This document shows positions 51,592-62,886 of a stretch of DNA of 64,000 nucleotides, one piece after another. The position numbers and the translations under genes were made by a program. The DNA is taken from NCBI GenBank assembly GCA_951812825.1, contig OX638324.1, positions 1,363,141 to 1,427,140 of the forward strand. Direction: 5' to 3'. Each line of letters begins with the position of its first letter. Positions within the stretch are counted from its first letter, which is position 1. The notes under the pieces were generated by a model that ran no database searches, was not told where the DNA came from, and saw only the letters and a program-made list of their open reading frames with translations. The stretch comes from an uncultured Dehalococcoidia bacterium. Its GTDB lineage: Bacteria; Chloroflexota; Dehalococcoidia; Lucifugimonadales; GCA-2712585.

Positions 51592-52134
51592 ATGACAACG
51601 ACAGGCGCGCAAAGGACCAACTGGCCGGAACGGCTGCGGGAGATCAGCCAATACGTAAACCTGACCGAGGAAGACCGCAAGCTGATACGGTCCACCGGCC
51701 CCATAGTACGCCGTTATGCCGACCAGTTGACCACCGAAGTCTACGACCTCATCTTCGAATTTCCCAACGCAGGCCGGTTCTTCTCCTACGACGACGGTAC
51801 CCCCGACCCAAAGCGCGTGAAGGACAACAAGGACTCCATGATGCAGTGGCTGAATTATCTGGCCCAGGCCCCCTCCAACGACGCCTTTGCCCGCTACATG
51901 ATAGCGATAAGCGCCATGCATCGGGACATCCCCATACACCGCCCCGGTCTGCCCCCGGTGCCCTCCCAGTTCGTCATCGGCACCATCTCCTGGTACCAGA
52001 CCCGGCTGATTCAGATCTTTGAGGATGAGCTGGGCGACTTGCGGAAGGCGGCAGAAGCAAGCACAGCCTGGAACAAGATGCTCATGGTCTCCCTGGACAT
52101 CCTCCTCGGCGCCTACCTCCTCGACTCCCGATAG
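51592..52134 (+). CDS. Protoglobin-family globin
   Basis: 180 residues. Helical sequence ISQYVNLTEEDRKLIRSTGPIVRRYADQLTTEVYD, the YLAQ...DAFARYM region and the heme-contact AMHRDIPIHRPGLPP, with His110 the likely proximal ligand. The family is single-domain; no kinase or cyclase domain is attached. Protoglobins bind O2, CO or NO and are usually suggested to sense or detoxify gases. It stands alone, 180 bases after the SelW-like gene in divergent orientation. Confidence 0.85.
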   Translation: MTTTGAQRTNWPERLREISQYVNLTEEDRKLIRSTGPIVRRYADQLTTEVYDLIFEFPNAGRFFSYDDGTPDPKRVKDNKDSMMQWLNYLAQAPSNDAFARYMIAISAMHRDIPIHRPGLPPVPSQFVIGTISWYQTRLIQIFEDELGDLRKAAEASTAWNKMLMVSLDILLGAYLLDSR

Positions 52135-52243: not shown

Positions 52244-52254
52244 ATGGCCGAAGA

Positions 52255-52432
52255 GATACTGAAGTATCCTTCCACTGAGCGAGCACTCTGTAAAGGATAT
52301 TCTCAGCCAGAAAAGTTTCCTAATTCCGCCTAAGGGATACTGGAGTTTCCTTAAACTGAGCGAATATCCTGTAAAAGATACTATTGGGACGAAAAGTTTC
52401 CTAATTCCGCCTAAGGGATACTGGAGTTTCCT
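52255..52432 (+). repeat. 81-bp tandem repeat array before the Fic gene
   Basis: Repeat units start at 52255, 52336 and 52417 (81-bp period). The last unit ends in the gene's own ribosome site and TTG start. Each unit begins GATACTGNAGTNTCCTT, an imperfect palindrome, and units 1-2 share the 3' segment GAAAAGTTTCCTAATTCCGC. Confidence 0.8.
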
Positions 52433-53578
52433 TTGCTGAAAAGACTTGGCCCTAACCCATACGGGACCTTGGTTCCAACCATAGAGAATCAGATGGCATT
52501 CGCGCCTGCTCCCCTTCCTCGAGAGTTGAACCTGAACCCTCATCTCGTGTGGATGCTCGACAATGCGTCCAGGGCCGTAGCTTCGCTGTCAGCCATAGGC
52601 GAAAACATGCAGAATCCCCACCTGCTAATTTCACCAATGTTGCGGAGAGAGGCCCTCTTGTCTTCCCGGATAGAAGGGACCATTGCGTCGTTGTCCGACG
52701 TGCTATCCCACGAGGCGATTCGCAAGAGGCGTCCCAACGACGACGTTGAGGAAGTCATCAACTACGTGGATGCTCTCGACCTGGGCATTTCGCTGCTGGA
52801 AGAGATGCCCATTTCATACAGGCTGGTAAACGAGGTCCATAGAGTCCTCCTGTCCGGAGTGCGCGGGCAGGAAAAGCGGCCTGGGGAATTTCGTACGCTT
52901 CAGGTTTGGATTGGCGCTCCGGGGTCTTCAATCAGAAACGCGCGGTTCGTCCCGCCGCCGCCGGACATGCTGCGAGACCAGTTTCAGGACTGGGAAGAGT
53001 TCGCCAACGCGGATTTGGAGATGCCGCCCCTGGTGAAGTGCGCGCTGATGCACTATCAGTTTGAGGCAATTCATCCGTATCGTGACGGTAACGGAAGAAT
53101 CGGGCGCTTGCTCATCACTCTTTTTCTAAAGGAGAGCGGCATTCTTTCCAACCCACTGCTGTATCTGAGCGCCTATTTCGAACGGGAGAGGCAACGATAT
53201 TATGACGAGCTATTGAGCGTCAGCGCTACGGGCGACTGGGAACAATGGCTTGAGTATTTTCTGAACGGCGTGTGGAAGGAGTCGCTGGACGTGGTGGCGC
53301 GGATTAGGCGACTGAGAGATCTGCAAGAAAGGCATCGAGCTGAACTGCTGAAGAGAAGAGCGCCGGCCAGTGAGTCTCGATTGGTTGATGAACTGTTCGC
53401 CAATCCCTTTATGACTGCGCCGAGGGCCAGCGAGATACTGGGGATGACTCCGGCGGGGGCTCGCAGGGCTTTGGGCAGGCTGGCTTCGGCGGGCATTGTA
53501 CGTGTAATCTCCGACCACCGCCCCCAACTATACCTGGCTGAGGAGATACTGGAGATTCTGGACGCGCCGGAAGCTTAG
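52433..53578 (+). CDS. Fic family protein (class II, with winged-helix C-terminus)
   Basis: 381 residues from TTG 52433, with GGAG six bases upstream. The N-terminal inhibitory motif is SSRIEG (Glu81), as in self-inhibited class II Fic proteins. The Fic active site is HPYRDGNGRIGR (His214). The C-terminal ~70 residues form a helix-turn-helix (FMTAPRASEILGMTPAGARRALGRLASAGIV). Fic enzymes AMPylate target proteins; the HTH suggests self-regulation through the upstream repeats. Targets are unknown. Confidence 0.92.
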   Translation: MLKRLGPNPYGTLVPTIENQMAFAPAPLPRELNLNPHLVWMLDNASRAVASLSAIGENMQNPHLLISPMLRREALLSSRIEGTIASLSDVLSHEAIRKRRPNDDVEEVINYVDALDLGISLLEEMPISYRLVNEVHRVLLSGVRGQEKRPGEFRTLQVWIGAPGSSIRNARFVPPPPDMLRDQFQDWEEFANADLEMPPLVKCALMHYQFEAIHPYRDGNGRIGRLLITLFLKESGILSNPLLYLSAYFERERQRYYDELLSVSATGDWEQWLEYFLNGVWKESLDVVARIRRLRDLQERHRAELLKRRAPASESRLVDELFANPFMTAPRASEILGMTPAGARRALGRLASAGIVRVISDHRPQLYLAEEILEILDAPEA

Positions 53579-56450: not shown

Positions 56451-57230
56451 ATGGAAGCTAACCCCAAAACCCTATGGATATCCCAAAGAAGGCTGGAGAC
56501 CCTGCTCTCAGTGCTGGATCAGGCCCCGCCCCTGGACGCCACAACCCTTCTCCTACCCCCTGGCGAATCCCTTGACGCCCTTTCCCCCACAAGTGAACGA
56601 AAGGCTCAGTGGCTGAAGGAGATGCGCGAAGCCGTCCCAGACCGCCTATGGCAGTCCGAAACGGGCGCCCTCCTCTTCTGGAGCGATCACCTCAAGCTTG
56701 CCGTTGAACCGCCATTCCCGCTGGAATCCACAGCCTTACGAAACGGCATCAGCATCAGCTCCCTCCGAACCCTGCTGCACCGAGAACCCGTCATAGCCGT
56801 TGCGCTCCTCCGGCTGGGTAGCTACTCCGTTGGCGTCTTTCGAGGACGCCGTCTCCTCGACGCCAAGACTGGCACCCGCTACGTGAAGGGACGCCACAGC
56901 GCGGGCGGAACGTCTCAGCGTCGCTTTGCCCGCGTAAGGGAGAAGCAGATCCATTATCTATACGTGAAGGTTTGCCAGGTAGCTCGGCAAAAGCTGGAAC
57001 CCTACGAAAAGCAGTTGGAGCACGTATTCCTCGGTGGCGAACGGCACACCCTCTCGAGCTTCATTAAGGAATGCCCCTTCCTTCAACGCTTGGAGCCTCT
57101 GATATCGAGCCGCATCCTGCCCGTGCGCGAACCCCGCAGGCGTGAACTGGAGCGAATGCCCAATGAAATCTGGAAGAGCCGCGTAACTGTTTTCCGGCTC
57201 CCGGAAGGCTTCCCCTTTGAAGGACTTTAA
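56451..57230 (+). CDS. VLRF1-type peptidyl-tRNA hydrolase/release factor
   Basis: 259 residues. The VLRF1 (Vms1/ANKZF1-like) domain spans roughly residues 105-225: LLRLGSYSVGVFRGRRLLD, then KGRHSAGGTSQRRFARVREKQ with the catalytic-type Gln156 in GTSQ (compare GTAQ in human ANKZF1), and HYLYVKVCQVARQKLE. VLRF1 proteins cleave peptidyl-tRNA on split large subunits. The next gene is mutS2, whose product splits stalled ribosomes in Bacillus. The N-terminal 100 residues have no known domain. Confidence 0.78.
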   Translation: MEANPKTLWISQRRLETLLSVLDQAPPLDATTLLLPPGESLDALSPTSERKAQWLKEMREAVPDRLWQSETGALLFWSDHLKLAVEPPFPLESTALRNGISISSLRTLLHREPVIAVALLRLGSYSVGVFRGRRLLDAKTGTRYVKGRHSAGGTSQRRFARVREKQIHYLYVKVCQVARQKLEPYEKQLEHVFLGGERHTLSSFIKECPFLQRLEPLISSRILPVREPRRRELERMPNEIWKSRVTVFRLPEGFPFEGL

Positions 57231-57262
57231 TTCTCGCCCCCATTTGGCTGCGTTGCGCAGCG

Positions 57263-57284
57263 AAAAGTGACATCATGCCCATTG
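57263..57284 (+). repeat. 22-bp interspersed motif, copy 3
   Basis: AAAAGTGACATCATGCCCAT then TG, in the short gap between the VLRF1 gene and mutS2. Confidence 0.55.
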
Positions 57285-57346
57285 ATGCGCCTGCGCTGTG
57301 ACTGATAACATCTTCCCGTCATCTCTATTGAATCGGAACTTTACCC

Positions 57347-59767
57347 GTGTCAACCTCTTCCATGTCCAGCCAACTAGCTACAAATAATTCACACCCCTCC
57401 ACAGTTCGGGAAACCGACCGGGAAACCTTGGAACTGCTGGAGTTCCACCTCATCCGGCAGCAGCTGGCCCGGTACACCACCCTGGCGCCGGCGCGGGAAT
57501 CCGCTCAGGCGCTGTCCCCCACCTCCGACCTTGAACAAATACGCCGTTGGCAGCAGGGCACCTTGGAGGCCCGCAGCTTCCTCGATGAGCAGGGTTCTCT
57601 GGACCTGACGGGAGTGGAGGACATTCGAGAGCTCGTGCAACGGGCTGTTCTAACCGGCGTTCTCCGGGCCGAGCATCTGCGGGAGATACACGACACGCTG
57701 CGGGCCTGCCGCCGGGCGCGCTCCGTCCTGGCTCATCGGAGGGATCTGCACCTCATATCCAGCTGGGCCCGGTTAATCCCCTCCCTGCGAGAGTTGGAAG
57801 ACCGCATAGCCGCGGCCATCGACGCCAACGGCCTGATAATGGACAACGCCACCCCTGCCCTGCGGCAGCTTCGCATCCAGGCGGAACAGGCCCGCTCCCG
57901 TCTCTCCATCTCTATGGAGCGAGAGATGCGCCGCTTGCGCCGAACCAACTTATTGCAGGAGCAGCTCATTACCGAGCGCAATGGACGGTTGGTGCTGCTG
58001 GTCAAAAGTTCCCTACGCCAGCAGGTTCCCGGTATAGTCCACGACGTTTCAGATAGCGGCGCAACCGCCTTCATTGAACCCCTGGGCGCGGTGCCTCTGG
58101 GCAACCGCTGGCGCGAAGCGGCCCTGTCCGCCCGACGAGAGGAAGAGCGCATTCTACGCTCCCTGTCGTCCCAGGTGGGACTTCAGGGAGAGCAGGTCCT
58201 CGCCTCTCTGGACCTGCTGGCACAGATAGACTTCACCATTGCCAAGGGGCGCCTCTCCATGGCCCACGGCGGAACCCCACCGGCCTTCGTCGATGATGAT
58301 GAGTCCCACTTGAAGCTGGAAGCTGCCCGTCATCCCCTCCTCGGAAATTCTGCCGTCCCCATCAATCTGACCCTTGGCGGCGAAGGCAGAATCCTGCTGA
58401 TTACCGGTCCCAACGCCGGCGGCAAGACCGTCGCCCTCAAGACGGCGGGCCTGCTGACTGCCATGGCCCAAGCGGGTCTGCACGTGCCCGCGGGCCGCTG
58501 CCGGATGACGGTCTTCGACGCCGTATACGCCGACATCGGAGACCAGCAGAGCATCGAGCAGTCCCTTTCCTCCTTCAGCTCCCACCTTCAAAACCTGCGG
58601 GGAATAATGGAAGGCGCCACCTCCCGTTCCCTCGTCCTGCTGGACGAACTGGGGGCCAGCACCGATCCGGAGGAAGGCGCAGCCCTCGCCAAAGCCACCA
58701 TCAGCTATTTCGCCCGCGGCGGGGTGGCCTGCATCGTCACCACCCATCATCGGGACGTGGCCGCCTTTGCCCAGGACCAGCACGGCATGGTTAACGCCAG
58801 CGTGGAGCTTTATCCTTCCGACCTCACGCCCACCTATCGCCTGGCCATAGGCCTCCCGGGAAGAAGCTACGCCCTCACCATTGCGCAGCGCATGGGCATA
58901 GACGAAGCTACGGTTGACCACGCCCGTTCTCTGCTCTCCGAGGACCACCGGAGGGCTGAAGAGCTTTTGCGCAAGCTGGAAGAAGAGCGCTCCCTCGCAG
59001 AAAAACACCGCCTCGCTTCCCAGAAGGAAGCTAGGCAGACCCGCGCCGAACGAGAGGAGTTGGAGAAGCGGTTGAATGACCTGGAAAACGAAAAGGCAGT
59101 AATTCTTGAGGAGGCGCGCCAGGAGATTCAAGCCAGGGCAGACGATCTATGGAAGCGGCTCCGTCGCGCCGAACGTTCCCTGACCCGCCCCGACTGGAAC
59201 CGCGACCTGAAGGACGAACGCATCGATGTTGCCCAAGTCCGCAGCCAGATACGTTCCTCCCTCGCTCCTCCGAAGTCCGAATCCAAACCAAAGGTCAACC
59301 CCAGGCGCTGGGTCGACGAACTGGAGCGGGGTGACTTCGTCTACGTCCGGGGTCTGCCCAACCCTGCGGAGGTGCTGGAGCCATCGAAGAACGGCGGCAG
59401 TCTGGAGCTGCTCCTGGGATCAGTCCGGGCAAGTATCCCGTCTCACCAGATTGAGCGTAAGGCCGAAAACCCTCAGCCCGTGAAAATGCCGGAGGGCGTT
59501 TCTCTCTCCCGCGCGCCAACGGGCCCCGCAAAGACGGAGTTGGACCTTCGTGGGATGCGCGTGGAAGAGGCCGACGCGCAGATTGAGACGTTTCTCGACC
59601 AGGCGTTGATGAAGGGGCTCTCCTCTGTGAGAATCGTCCACGGTGGCGGCACCGGCGCCCTCCGCTCCCTGGTTCGCGAACGGCTGAAAGGCCACCCTGT
59701 AGTCAAGTCAGCGCGCCCTGAGTCCGTCGGCCTCACCGATGGCGCAACCCTGGTGGAGTTGGTCTAG
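57347..59767 (+). CDS. mutS2: MutS2 ribosome-splitting/endonuclease family ATPase
   Basis: 806 residues. The MutS-type ATPase carries Walker A ITGPNAGGKTVALKT near residue 355, the QSIEQSLSSFSSHL signature and DELGASTDPEEGAAL; a long coiled coil (about 520-610) follows, and the C-terminal Smr domain begins TELDLRGMRVEEADAQIE and has VHGGGTGALR. In Bacillus subtilis MutS2 senses collided ribosomes and splits them. The start is GTG 57347, or ATG 57362; no strong ribosome site decides. Directly downstream of the VLRF1 gene. Confidence 0.93.
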   Translation: MSTSSMSSQLATNNSHPSTVRETDRETLELLEFHLIRQQLARYTTLAPARESAQALSPTSDLEQIRRWQQGTLEARSFLDEQGSLDLTGVEDIRELVQRAVLTGVLRAEHLREIHDTLRACRRARSVLAHRRDLHLISSWARLIPSLRELEDRIAAAIDANGLIMDNATPALRQLRIQAEQARSRLSISMEREMRRLRRTNLLQEQLITERNGRLVLLVKSSLRQQVPGIVHDVSDSGATAFIEPLGAVPLGNRWREAALSARREEERILRSLSSQVGLQGEQVLASLDLLAQIDFTIAKGRLSMAHGGTPPAFVDDDESHLKLEAARHPLLGNSAVPINLTLGGEGRILLITGPNAGGKTVALKTAGLLTAMAQAGLHVPAGRCRMTVFDAVYADIGDQQSIEQSLSSFSSHLQNLRGIMEGATSRSLVLLDELGASTDPEEGAALAKATISYFARGGVACIVTTHHRDVAAFAQDQHGMVNASVELYPSDLTPTYRLAIGLPGRSYALTIAQRMGIDEATVDHARSLLSEDHRRAEELLRKLEEERSLAEKHRLASQKEARQTRAEREELEKRLNDLENEKAVILEEARQEIQARADDLWKRLRRAERSLTRPDWNRDLKDERIDVAQVRSQIRSSLAPPKSESKPKVNPRRWVDELERGDFVYVRGLPNPAEVLEPSKNGGSLELLLGSVRASIPSHQIERKAENPQPVKMPEGVSLSRAPTGPAKTELDLRGMRVEEADAQIETFLDQALMKGLSSVRIVHGGGTGALRSLVRERLKGHPVVKSARPESVGLTDGATLVELV

Positions 59768-61065: not shown

Positions 61066-62886
61066 ATGAAGATAGCCGTTTGCATGAAGCAGGTGCCCGT
61101 TCTCTCCCGGATAGAGTTTGACTATGAGAAGAAGACCATCCAGCGAGATGGCGTCCCCCTGGAGATGAACGTCTTTGACCTCATCGCCCTGGGGCGGGCC
61201 ATCGAGTTGAAGGAAGAGATCGGCGGCGAGGTCACGGCCATCACCATGGGCCCGCCCCAAGCCAAAGAAGTGCTGGCCCACGCGCTTGCCGTCGGCGCAG
61301 ACCGGGGCGTCATCATTTCCGATCCGGTGATGGCGGGGTCGGACACCCTCGCGACTTCCCGCACCCTTGCGCTGGCGCTGAAGGACGGAGGCTTTGACCT
61401 CATTCTCTGCGGTAGGAACAGCACCGACGCCGAAACGGGGCAGGTGGGGCCGGAACTTGCGGAGATCCTCGGGATTCCCCACGTAAGCCGCGCCCGGCGG
61501 ATGGACTATCGACCCGAGTCCAACAGCGTTGTGGTGGAGCGGGAGACGGACGAAGGCCACGAAGTATTGCAGGTGACGCTTCCCGCGCTGATAACGGCCA
61601 CGGAGGGCTTGAGCGAGGAGCGGTACGCTCGCCGCCGGATGCTGATGGAGGCGCGGGACCGGCCCGTGGAGGAGATAACTGCGGGGCAGCTTTCGGACGA
61701 TACGTCGGTCTTTGGCGCGGAGGGGTCTCCGACCTGGGTCGAAGACATTCGCTTACTGGAACCGCAACGTTTGGGCGTGGTCATCGAAGACGCTGATCCC
61801 CAAACTGCGGCGCGGGCGGTGGCGGAGGGCCTTCGGGACCGTCCCGCCCCAGTCGAAGATGCAGCTCCGCCAGAAGCAACATGGGAAAGATATCCGCCAG
61901 GGGAGGGCGAGAGCTTGTGGGTGGTTGCTGAACGGTCCGCCGAAGGTCTGCGCCGCGCAACCCTGGAGAACCTGGGAAAGGCCAGGATGCTGGCCAAGGA
62001 ATTGCGTGGCCGGGTGGTCGCCGCTCTGGTGGAGGACTTCACGCCGGAGGAGATTGTGTCGCTGCATCGGTATGGCGCGGACTTTATTCTGGACTTGCAC
62101 CACCCCAAGTTTGGGCATCCAACCAGCCCGCTGACGGCGTCCATCTTTGCGCGGGCATTGCAGGACTACGATCCCTACGCGGTGCTGTTTTCCTCCACTG
62201 CCAACGGTCGCGACCTGGCTTCGCGGGCGGCGGCCCGGCTTTCGCTCGGTCTGACGGGCGATTGCATCGACCTGGAGTTGGACGAGGAGGGAAGGCTGGT
62301 GCAGCTGAAGCCCGCCCTGGGCGGCAACGTGGTTGCGCCCATCCTGTCGAAGACTAAGCCGTATCTGGTGACGCTGCGACCCGGCCTGCTGACACCCGTT
62401 GCTCCAGAAGACGATCCCGACTTCGATTTGGGCGCACCGGACTACTGCGTGGAAGGGACGGACACGCTGCGCCTTGTAGAAAGCCGGGTTGAAGAGGATG
62501 CCGGCGGGCTGGAACTGGAGCGGGCGGACGTCGTCATTGGCGTGGGCATGGGCATCGGCGGCCCGGAATCCCTCCCCGGGATCAGGCAGGCGGCCGAGAA
62601 GCTGGGCGCGTCTATCGCAGCCACCCGCAGCGTCACCGACATGGGATGGCTGCCTAAACAGCTGCAGGTGGGCCTCACGGGTCGGGCCATCGCGCCCAGG
62701 CTGTATATCGCGGTCGGCATACGGGGCGACTTCAATCACGTCGTGGGCATCCAGAAGGCGGGCACGGTGGTGGGCATCAACACCACCCGCAGGCACCCCA
62801 TATTCCAGGCGGCGGACTACTGCATCCTTGGTCGATGGGAAGAGTACCTGCCGGCCCTGGTGGAGGCGCTGGCTGAGAAAGCCTAA
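61066..62886 (+). CDS. Fused electron transfer flavoprotein (EtfB-EtfA)
   Basis: 606 residues. The first ~250 are EtfB (MKIAVCMKQVP, LCGRNSTDAETGQVGPELA, ...ATEGLSEERYARRRMLM), then a linker, and residues ~280-606 are EtfA (SLWVVAERSAEGLRRATLENLGKAR, and the FAD-binding GLTGRAIAPRLYIAVGIRGDFNHVVGIQKAGTVVGIN). Normally these are separate genes. The pair would take electrons from acyl-CoA or other dehydrogenases to the ETF:quinone oxidoreductase. The fusion is unbroken; no frameshift was needed. Confidence 0.93.
   Translation: MKIAVCMKQVPVLSRIEFDYEKKTIQRDGVPLEMNVFDLIALGRAIELKEEIGGEVTAITMGPPQAKEVLAHALAVGADRGVIISDPVMAGSDTLATSRTLALALKDGGFDLILCGRNSTDAETGQVGPELAEILGIPHVSRARRMDYRPESNSVVVERETDEGHEVLQVTLPALITATEGLSEERYARRRMLMEARDRPVEEITAGQLSDDTSVFGAEGSPTWVEDIRLLEPQRLGVVIEDADPQTAARAVAEGLRDRPAPVEDAAPPEATWERYPPGEGESLWVVAERSAEGLRRATLENLGKARMLAKELRGRVVAALVEDFTPEEIVSLHRYGADFILDLHHPKFGHPTSPLTASIFARALQDYDPYAVLFSSTANGRDLASRAAARLSLGLTGDCIDLELDEEGRLVQLKPALGGNVVAPILSKTKPYLVTLRPGLLTPVAPEDDPDFDLGAPDYCVEGTDTLRLVESRVEEDAGGLELERADVVIGVGMGIGGPESLPGIRQAAEKLGASIAATRSVTDMGWLPKQLQVGLTGRAIAPRLYIAVGIRGDFNHVVGIQKAGTVVGINTTRRHPIFQAADYCILGRWEEYLPALVEALAEKA

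Follow-up and report, generated by a model that had tools for sequence, protein, structure and literature searches.

An acVLRF1-family gene maintained beside mutS2 in Dehalococcoidia: a candidate ribosome rescue pair in a class without RqcH

In the genome of an uncultured Dehalococcoidia bacterium, a stretch of 64,000 nucleotides (contig OX638324.1, positions 1,363,141 to 1,427,140; hereafter the window) carries a gene for a protein of the acVLRF1 family, followed on the same strand by mutS2, also known as rqcU. The pairing of these genes is genuine and has been kept across much of the Dehalococcoidia, a class in which RqcH was not detected. It is probable, at roughly 0.6, that both genes form a functional rescue unit in which ribosomes would be split and the nascent chain then released without tailing. 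An original prediction, made from the sequence of the window, had proposed a two-gene ribosome rescue unit; the pair is indeed conserved, but the proposed pathway is altered by the absence of RqcH, which had not been considered, and the splitting and cleavage steps are carried over from relatives of the two proteins.

The exit of the nascent chain from the 50S subunit has been called the least understood stage of bacterial ribosome-associated quality control (RQC), and according to a paper of 2024 no dedicated bacterial termination factor had been identified (PMC11317155). The acVLRF1 proteins of Chloroflexi were already named in 2019 (Burroughs and Aravind; PMC6514570) and are annotated as peptidyl-tRNA hydrolases, hence only the pairing with mutS2 is new. 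The text of that paper does not connect the family with MutS2, and the open-access papers searched contained no account of the pair, subscription papers and preprints being mostly outside this coverage. The claim that the pathway was undescribed for this lineage is therefore upheld for the pair and has to be narrowed for the protein itself.

Conservation and history of the gene pair

In a survey of 393 Dehalococcoidia genomes, 131 carried acVLRF1 at E<=1e-10, of which 119 remained at about E<=1e-17; mutS2 exceeded its cut-off in 265 genomes. These 119 genomes contain 123 acVLRF1 loci; at 54 of them, with 21 families represented, mutS2 lies directly upstream on the same strand, and at two, the window and G633, acVLRF1 comes first, so that the genes adjoin in either order at 56/123. 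At the other loci the genes are far apart on one contig (7), on different contigs (46) or without a listed mutS2 (14). The recurrence of the adjacent pair in 21 families is far beyond chance. A second collection of 80 named loci, which overlaps in genomes with the survey, contains 39 loci with mutS2 followed by acVLRF1 and three with the opposite order (L094, L100 and L116), the remainder being unlinked or cut. The gaps between the two genes are small, with a median of 30 base pairs (bp); they do not exceed 100 bp in 57/69 cases, and some pairs overlap by 4 bp. In family f130 (L057 (G473), G453 and G384) the gap is about 600-630 bp, which leaves room for a small gene or a long leader.

Across 20 paired loci no third gene recurs around the pair. 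A third conserved partner was thus ruled out, and the antisense open reading frames (ORFs) that do recur are shadows of mutS2. Likewise, no VLRF match was detected beside mutS2 in loci that lack acVLRF1 there. A role in anti-phage defence was also rejected: acVLRF1 had no PADLOC match, and the MutS2 matches were weak and of the ATPase type only. Full-length mutS2 is carried by 102/119 genomes with acVLRF1 versus 163/274 without it, a comparison that is not corrected for phylogeny.

The arrangement with acVLRF1 first is the rarer one and was found in the window and four relatives (L073, L094, L100 and L116); the gaps are 31 bp in L094, 54 bp in L100 and 94 bp in L116, versus 116 bp in the window. 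A consensus scan of this 116-bp gap revealed no terminator on the + strand and no sigma-70-like promoter, although the promoter consensus says little for this phylum. In the VLRF1 tree the mutS2-first loci fall within one supported clade of 79 rows, plus G585; within this clade 68/79 rows adjoin mutS2, and contig ends interrupt several of the others. The acVLRF1-first loci fall into two small groups, one formed by the window, L094 and L116 and the other by L073 and L100. In the MutS2 tree these five loci and G585 constitute one supported group of six within the taxonomic order of the window. In the window and L094, acVLRF1 is located between a divergent alpha/beta hydrolase gene and mutS2, and in G456, G595 and G566 the hydrolase gene and mutS2 adjoin with no acVLRF1 between them. 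Two histories are both possible: the pair was re-formed in another order, or it was lost across most of the taxonomic order of the window.

Since the main arrangement corresponds largely to a single clade of the VLRF1 tree, the pair could also be an inherited neighbourhood devoid of functional meaning, or MutS2 could act on DNA in these bacteria. Nevertheless, the genes flanking the pair are not conserved and the reverse order occurs in another part of the trees, which makes this explanation very improbable.

The VLRF1 tree also places one sequence titled Rhodospirillaceae (L138, PAVD01000054.1) nested among SAR202 sequences, and it probably comes from a misbinned contig.

Properties of the two proteins

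The window genome has a single acVLRF1 copy, and its product is a member of the family described in 2019 (PF18859, NF041024), with which it shares the domain, the length, the GGxSQ loop and a Chloroflexi host. Its match to PF18859 has an E of 1.4e-30 and 106.6 bits, against a cut-off of 27.1; with the NCBIfam model NF041024, 'acVLRF1 family peptidyl-tRNA hydrolase', it reached 125.8 bits, barely above the cut-off of 125. The VLRF1 assignment of the original prediction was thus corroborated, as was the presence of two genes on one strand, 116 bases apart with mutS2 second, given by both ORFs and a full-length match to TIGR01069. Because of these profile matches and the conserved pair in relatives, the prediction stands on the two points where it was open to refutation, namely support from hidden Markov models and a conserved neighbourhood.

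The AlphaFold2 model of the protein (predicted local distance difference test score of 94.2) has aRF1/eRF1 and Vms1 as its nearest solved folds. An RNase H-fold release-factor domain occupies residues 115-246 and is preceded by about 110 residues that resemble domain 1 of eRF1; in the model the C-terminal Pelota-like domain is absent. Comparison with yeast Vms1 (6r84) gave a Z of 10.6 and a root-mean-square deviation (rmsd) of 4.6 over 174 residues, with residues 10-248 aligned as one body. The predicted structure therefore has the fold of a VLRF-1 domain, which bears out the likeness to Vms1/ANKZF1 that had been suggested for it. In contrast, aRF1/eRF1 aligned over two domains with rmsd values of 13-16, indicating a different domain arrangement. 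The window protein and the eukaryotic Vms1/ANKZF1 thus share the RNase H-fold domain, the domain arrangement, and an arginine and two glycines ahead of the loop glutamine; however, they are only 15% identical, and the zinc-finger, ankyrin and VIM regions are absent from the 259 residues of the window protein. In agreement with this, Pfam detected only release-factor domain models in it, and no zinc finger, ankyrin repeats or p97-binding motif.

The N-terminal part of the protein (residues 1-110; window 56451-56780) is probably a reduced version of eRF1 domain 1 and not an unrelated extension. This reading of the model and the profiles is based on the match of residues 8-111 to the N-terminal domain of eRF1 (2llx; Z 8.2, rmsd 3.1 over 103 residues, close to the noise limit) and on the alignment of the acVLRF1 family profile with aRF1 from residue 5 onwards. 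It differs from the 2019 description, in which domain 1 of eRF1 was considered lost in acVLRF1 (PMC6514570).

Among the fold matches of the model were also the Balon structures 8v9k and 8rd8, and other bacterial aeRF1 relatives adjoin genes for hibernation factors (PMC6514570), which raises the question of whether acVLRF1 could, like Balon, serve in hibernation or block the A site. The baeRF family 10 and Balon-type proteins belong to the same aeRF1 superfamily and are secondary matches of the window protein; nevertheless, they have about 380-430 residues and other flanking domains, and obtain better scores from PF18854 than from PF18859. Given that the neighbour of acVLRF1 is mutS2 and not a hibernation factor, that the C-terminal domain is missing and that the release loop is conserved, a Balon-like role is hardly to be expected.

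The window MutS2 scored 749.6 bits with TIGR01069 (cut-off 400), and contains the ATPase domain (PF00488, E 1.1e-32) and the Smr domain (PF01713, E 8.3e-21). Walker A (GPNAGGKT) and Walker B (LLDELG) motifs are present, together with the C-terminal Smr motifs LDLRG and HGGGTG; Walker A was retained in 88/88 MutS2 homologues. Residues 26-805 align end to end with MutS2 from B. subtilis (PDB 7qv3, E 9.4e-133; also 8qpp), for which the splitting of collided ribosomes has been established (PMC10897456). The KOW/SH3 model PF20297 reached only 15 bits (cut-off 26.8), and the region between the ATPase part and Smr aligns with the B. subtilis protein.

The catalytic loop and its glutamine

The loop of the window protein was examined in an alignment of 159 distinct homologues. 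G152, G153, S155 and R158 are invariant (159/159), and R148 is an arginine in 143/159. A glutamine (Gln) equivalent to Q156 was found in 104/159, in a set enriched in Gln by the search pattern RH[KR][KAQ]GGSSQ. When the loci retrieved with this pattern were excluded, the 109 homologues found with the profile showed Gln in 54, Ala in 30, Ser in 22 and Glu in 3. An invariant catalytic Gln was thereby ruled out: with 55/109 replacements, this residue is not indispensable to the acVLRF1 family. The GTSQ motif noticed in the original prediction is present within GGxSQ, but its Gln does not have the fixed catalytic status attributed to it; likewise, GGxSQ was stated for the whole family in 2019, whereas half of the members in this class are Gln-less. 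These include L057, L066, L068, L070-L074, L076, L087 and L089. The position has changed at least 18 times on the VLRF1 tree, and genes of both kinds occur adjoining mutS2.

In yeast Vms1, R288A and the replacement of GG by AA abolish hydrolysis, and Q295L is strongly impaired (PMC5989216). R148 and G152/G153 of the window protein are positioned like R288 and G292/G293 of Vms1. Judging from the alignments, either the chemistry of the family may not strictly need Gln, or the Gln-less members may have turned into non-catalytic helpers.

Absence of RqcH and presence of other rescue factors

The RQC of B. subtilis involves MutS2 (RqcU), RqcH, RqcP/YlmH and Pth. The first and the last have counterparts here, but RqcH is missing in the class and an acVLRF1 gene lies beside mutS2 instead. 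No RqcH (PF05833, NFACT_N) was detected in 80 class genomes, the window genome included, irrespective of the presence of acVLRF1, and 10/14 named positive controls were matched; in agreement, PF05670 was found in 0/25 class genomes. Both models gave matches in B. subtilis as well as in controls from the Chloroflexota. Vms1/ANKZF1 works in eukaryotes after Rqc2/NEMF, whereas no Rqc2/NEMF homologue occurs in the class. Trans-translation is present as well, with SmpB detected in 49/50 genomes and transfer-messenger RNA in the window genome.

Among 80 Chloroflexota genomes outside the class, RqcH was found in 42 and mutS2 in 70; the three with a clear acVLRF1 (G045, G231 and G177) all lack RqcH. 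Since the whole class is devoid of RqcH, the anti-correlation between acVLRF1 and RqcH is not independent evidence. As a general trend, 87% of the genomes without RqcH also lack MutS2 (PMC11633108), and the Dehalococcoidia contrast with it. The acVLRF1 proteins of G045 and G231 (L084 and L085) are very divergent (branch 2.28), were perhaps acquired from Actinobacteria, and occur in genomes with neither mutS2 nor RqcH. Outside the class, genomes with mutS2 but without RqcH and, in nearly all cases, without acVLRF1 include G005, G018, G028 and G046. Weak PF18859 matches elsewhere in Chloroflexota that had a usable ORF were rejected as true acVLRF1, since they scored best as baeRF family 10; four other ORFs yielded no match, probably owing to the choice of reading frame.

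A proposed route for rescue

By analogy with B. subtilis, MutS2 would recognise collided ribosomes and split the stalled one with ATP, leaving a 50S subunit with peptidyl-tRNA. As suggested by Vms1/ANKZF1, acVLRF1 would then place its GG-x-S loop in the empty A site and detach the chain, with the cut falling at the ester bond or inside the 3' end of the tRNA. The chain would leave without an alanine tail, given that the class has no RqcH, in a short route of splitting and release beside trans-translation. We infer that the pair is co-transcribed and acts in this sequence, with this activity and on this target.

A functional unit is supported by adjacency at almost half of the survey loci, by the small gaps and the lack of any other recurring flanking gene, by the existence of both gene orders, by the position of acVLRF1 within an abhydrolase/mutS2 junction in the window and L094, by the higher frequency of mutS2 in genomes with acVLRF1, by the absence of RqcH, and by the Vms1-like fold and placement of the loop. 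A complete RqcH-free route, with acVLRF1 as a dedicated bacterial 50S release factor of Gln-independent chemistry, is proposed only tentatively; such chemistry could be, for instance, cleavage of the 3' end of the tRNA in the manner of Vms1, helped by the conserved Lys139, Arg148 and His149.

Several observations weigh against a functional unit. In addition to the Gln-less loops, 17/119 genomes with acVLRF1 have no full-length mutS2, some of them being 93-96% complete, and in most of the taxonomic order of the window the genes are unlinked, as in the single-contig genomes G456, G561 and G595; the linkage is for these reasons strong but not obligatory. The conserved neighbourhood that had been anticipated thus exists across the class, but with mutS2 first as the commoner order and not in most of the window's own taxonomic order. 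Furthermore, Pth, the release factor of the B. subtilis RQC, is present in 50/50 genomes; 29/80 Chloroflexota from outside the class carry mutS2 but no RqcH, just one of them with a clear acVLRF1, therefore MutS2 can work without either; and acVLRF1 proteins are present in Actinobacteria too, a group for which neither mutS2 nor rqcH was detected (PMC11633108).

The unlinked loci, the genomes lacking full-length mutS2 and the actinobacterial members would suit a general peptidyl-tRNA release factor that acts on 50S subunits or non-stop ribosomes independently of MutS2, adjacency reflecting shared expression only. This is quite unlikely, because mutS2 is the partner time and again, across 21 families and with either gene first, whereas the other flanking genes all vary. 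Pth and the replaceable Gln, which changes repeatedly even beside mutS2, would rather suit a non-catalytic helper that wedges in the A site during splitting by MutS2, as Pelota/Dom34 does with ABCE1, and leaves the release to Pth; Pelota is itself a Gln-less eRF1 relative, in line with the fold. However, GG-x-S and the Arg downstream of it show no variation, the loops of inactive aeRF1 relatives having been reported as poorly conserved (PMC6514570), and acVLRF1 has no counterpart of the C-terminal domain of Pelota; for these reasons a helper role is considered unlikely.

Features of the locus

Table 1. Coordinates of the acVLRF1-mutS2 locus in the window.
Feature	Position	Strand	Basis
acVLRF1-family protein, 259 residues, ATG start	56451..57230	+	ORF; PF18859, NF041024
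Catalytic-loop motif R148-H-S-A-G152-G153-T-S155-Q156 (GGxSQ; contains GTSQ)	56892..56918	+	homologue alignments
Intergenic stretch, 116 bp, acVLRF1 to mutS2	57231..57346	+	ORF coordinates
mutS2 (rqcU), 806 residues, GTG start; ATG 5 codons in	57347..59767	+	ORF; TIGR01069

Downstream of the pair, a single ORF of 606 residues (61066-62886) resembles fused beta and alpha subunits of the electron transfer flavoprotein, and a homologue is also found downstream of mutS2 in L094 and L116. An 81-bp tandem repeat (52247-52433; 2.3 copies, 78-83% alike) has a globin-like gene (51592-52134) on one side and a Fic-family-like gene (52433-53578) on the other.

Significance

In this class, which has no RqcH, a relative of Vms1 is repeatedly encoded next to the ribosome splitter, which makes it a concrete candidate for a bacterial termination factor. 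The natural Gln-less members are ready variants for deciding whether VLRF1 proteins hydrolyse the ester bond or act as nucleases on the tRNA. If the proposed route is true, it would show that tailing is not needed to couple ribosome splitting with release.
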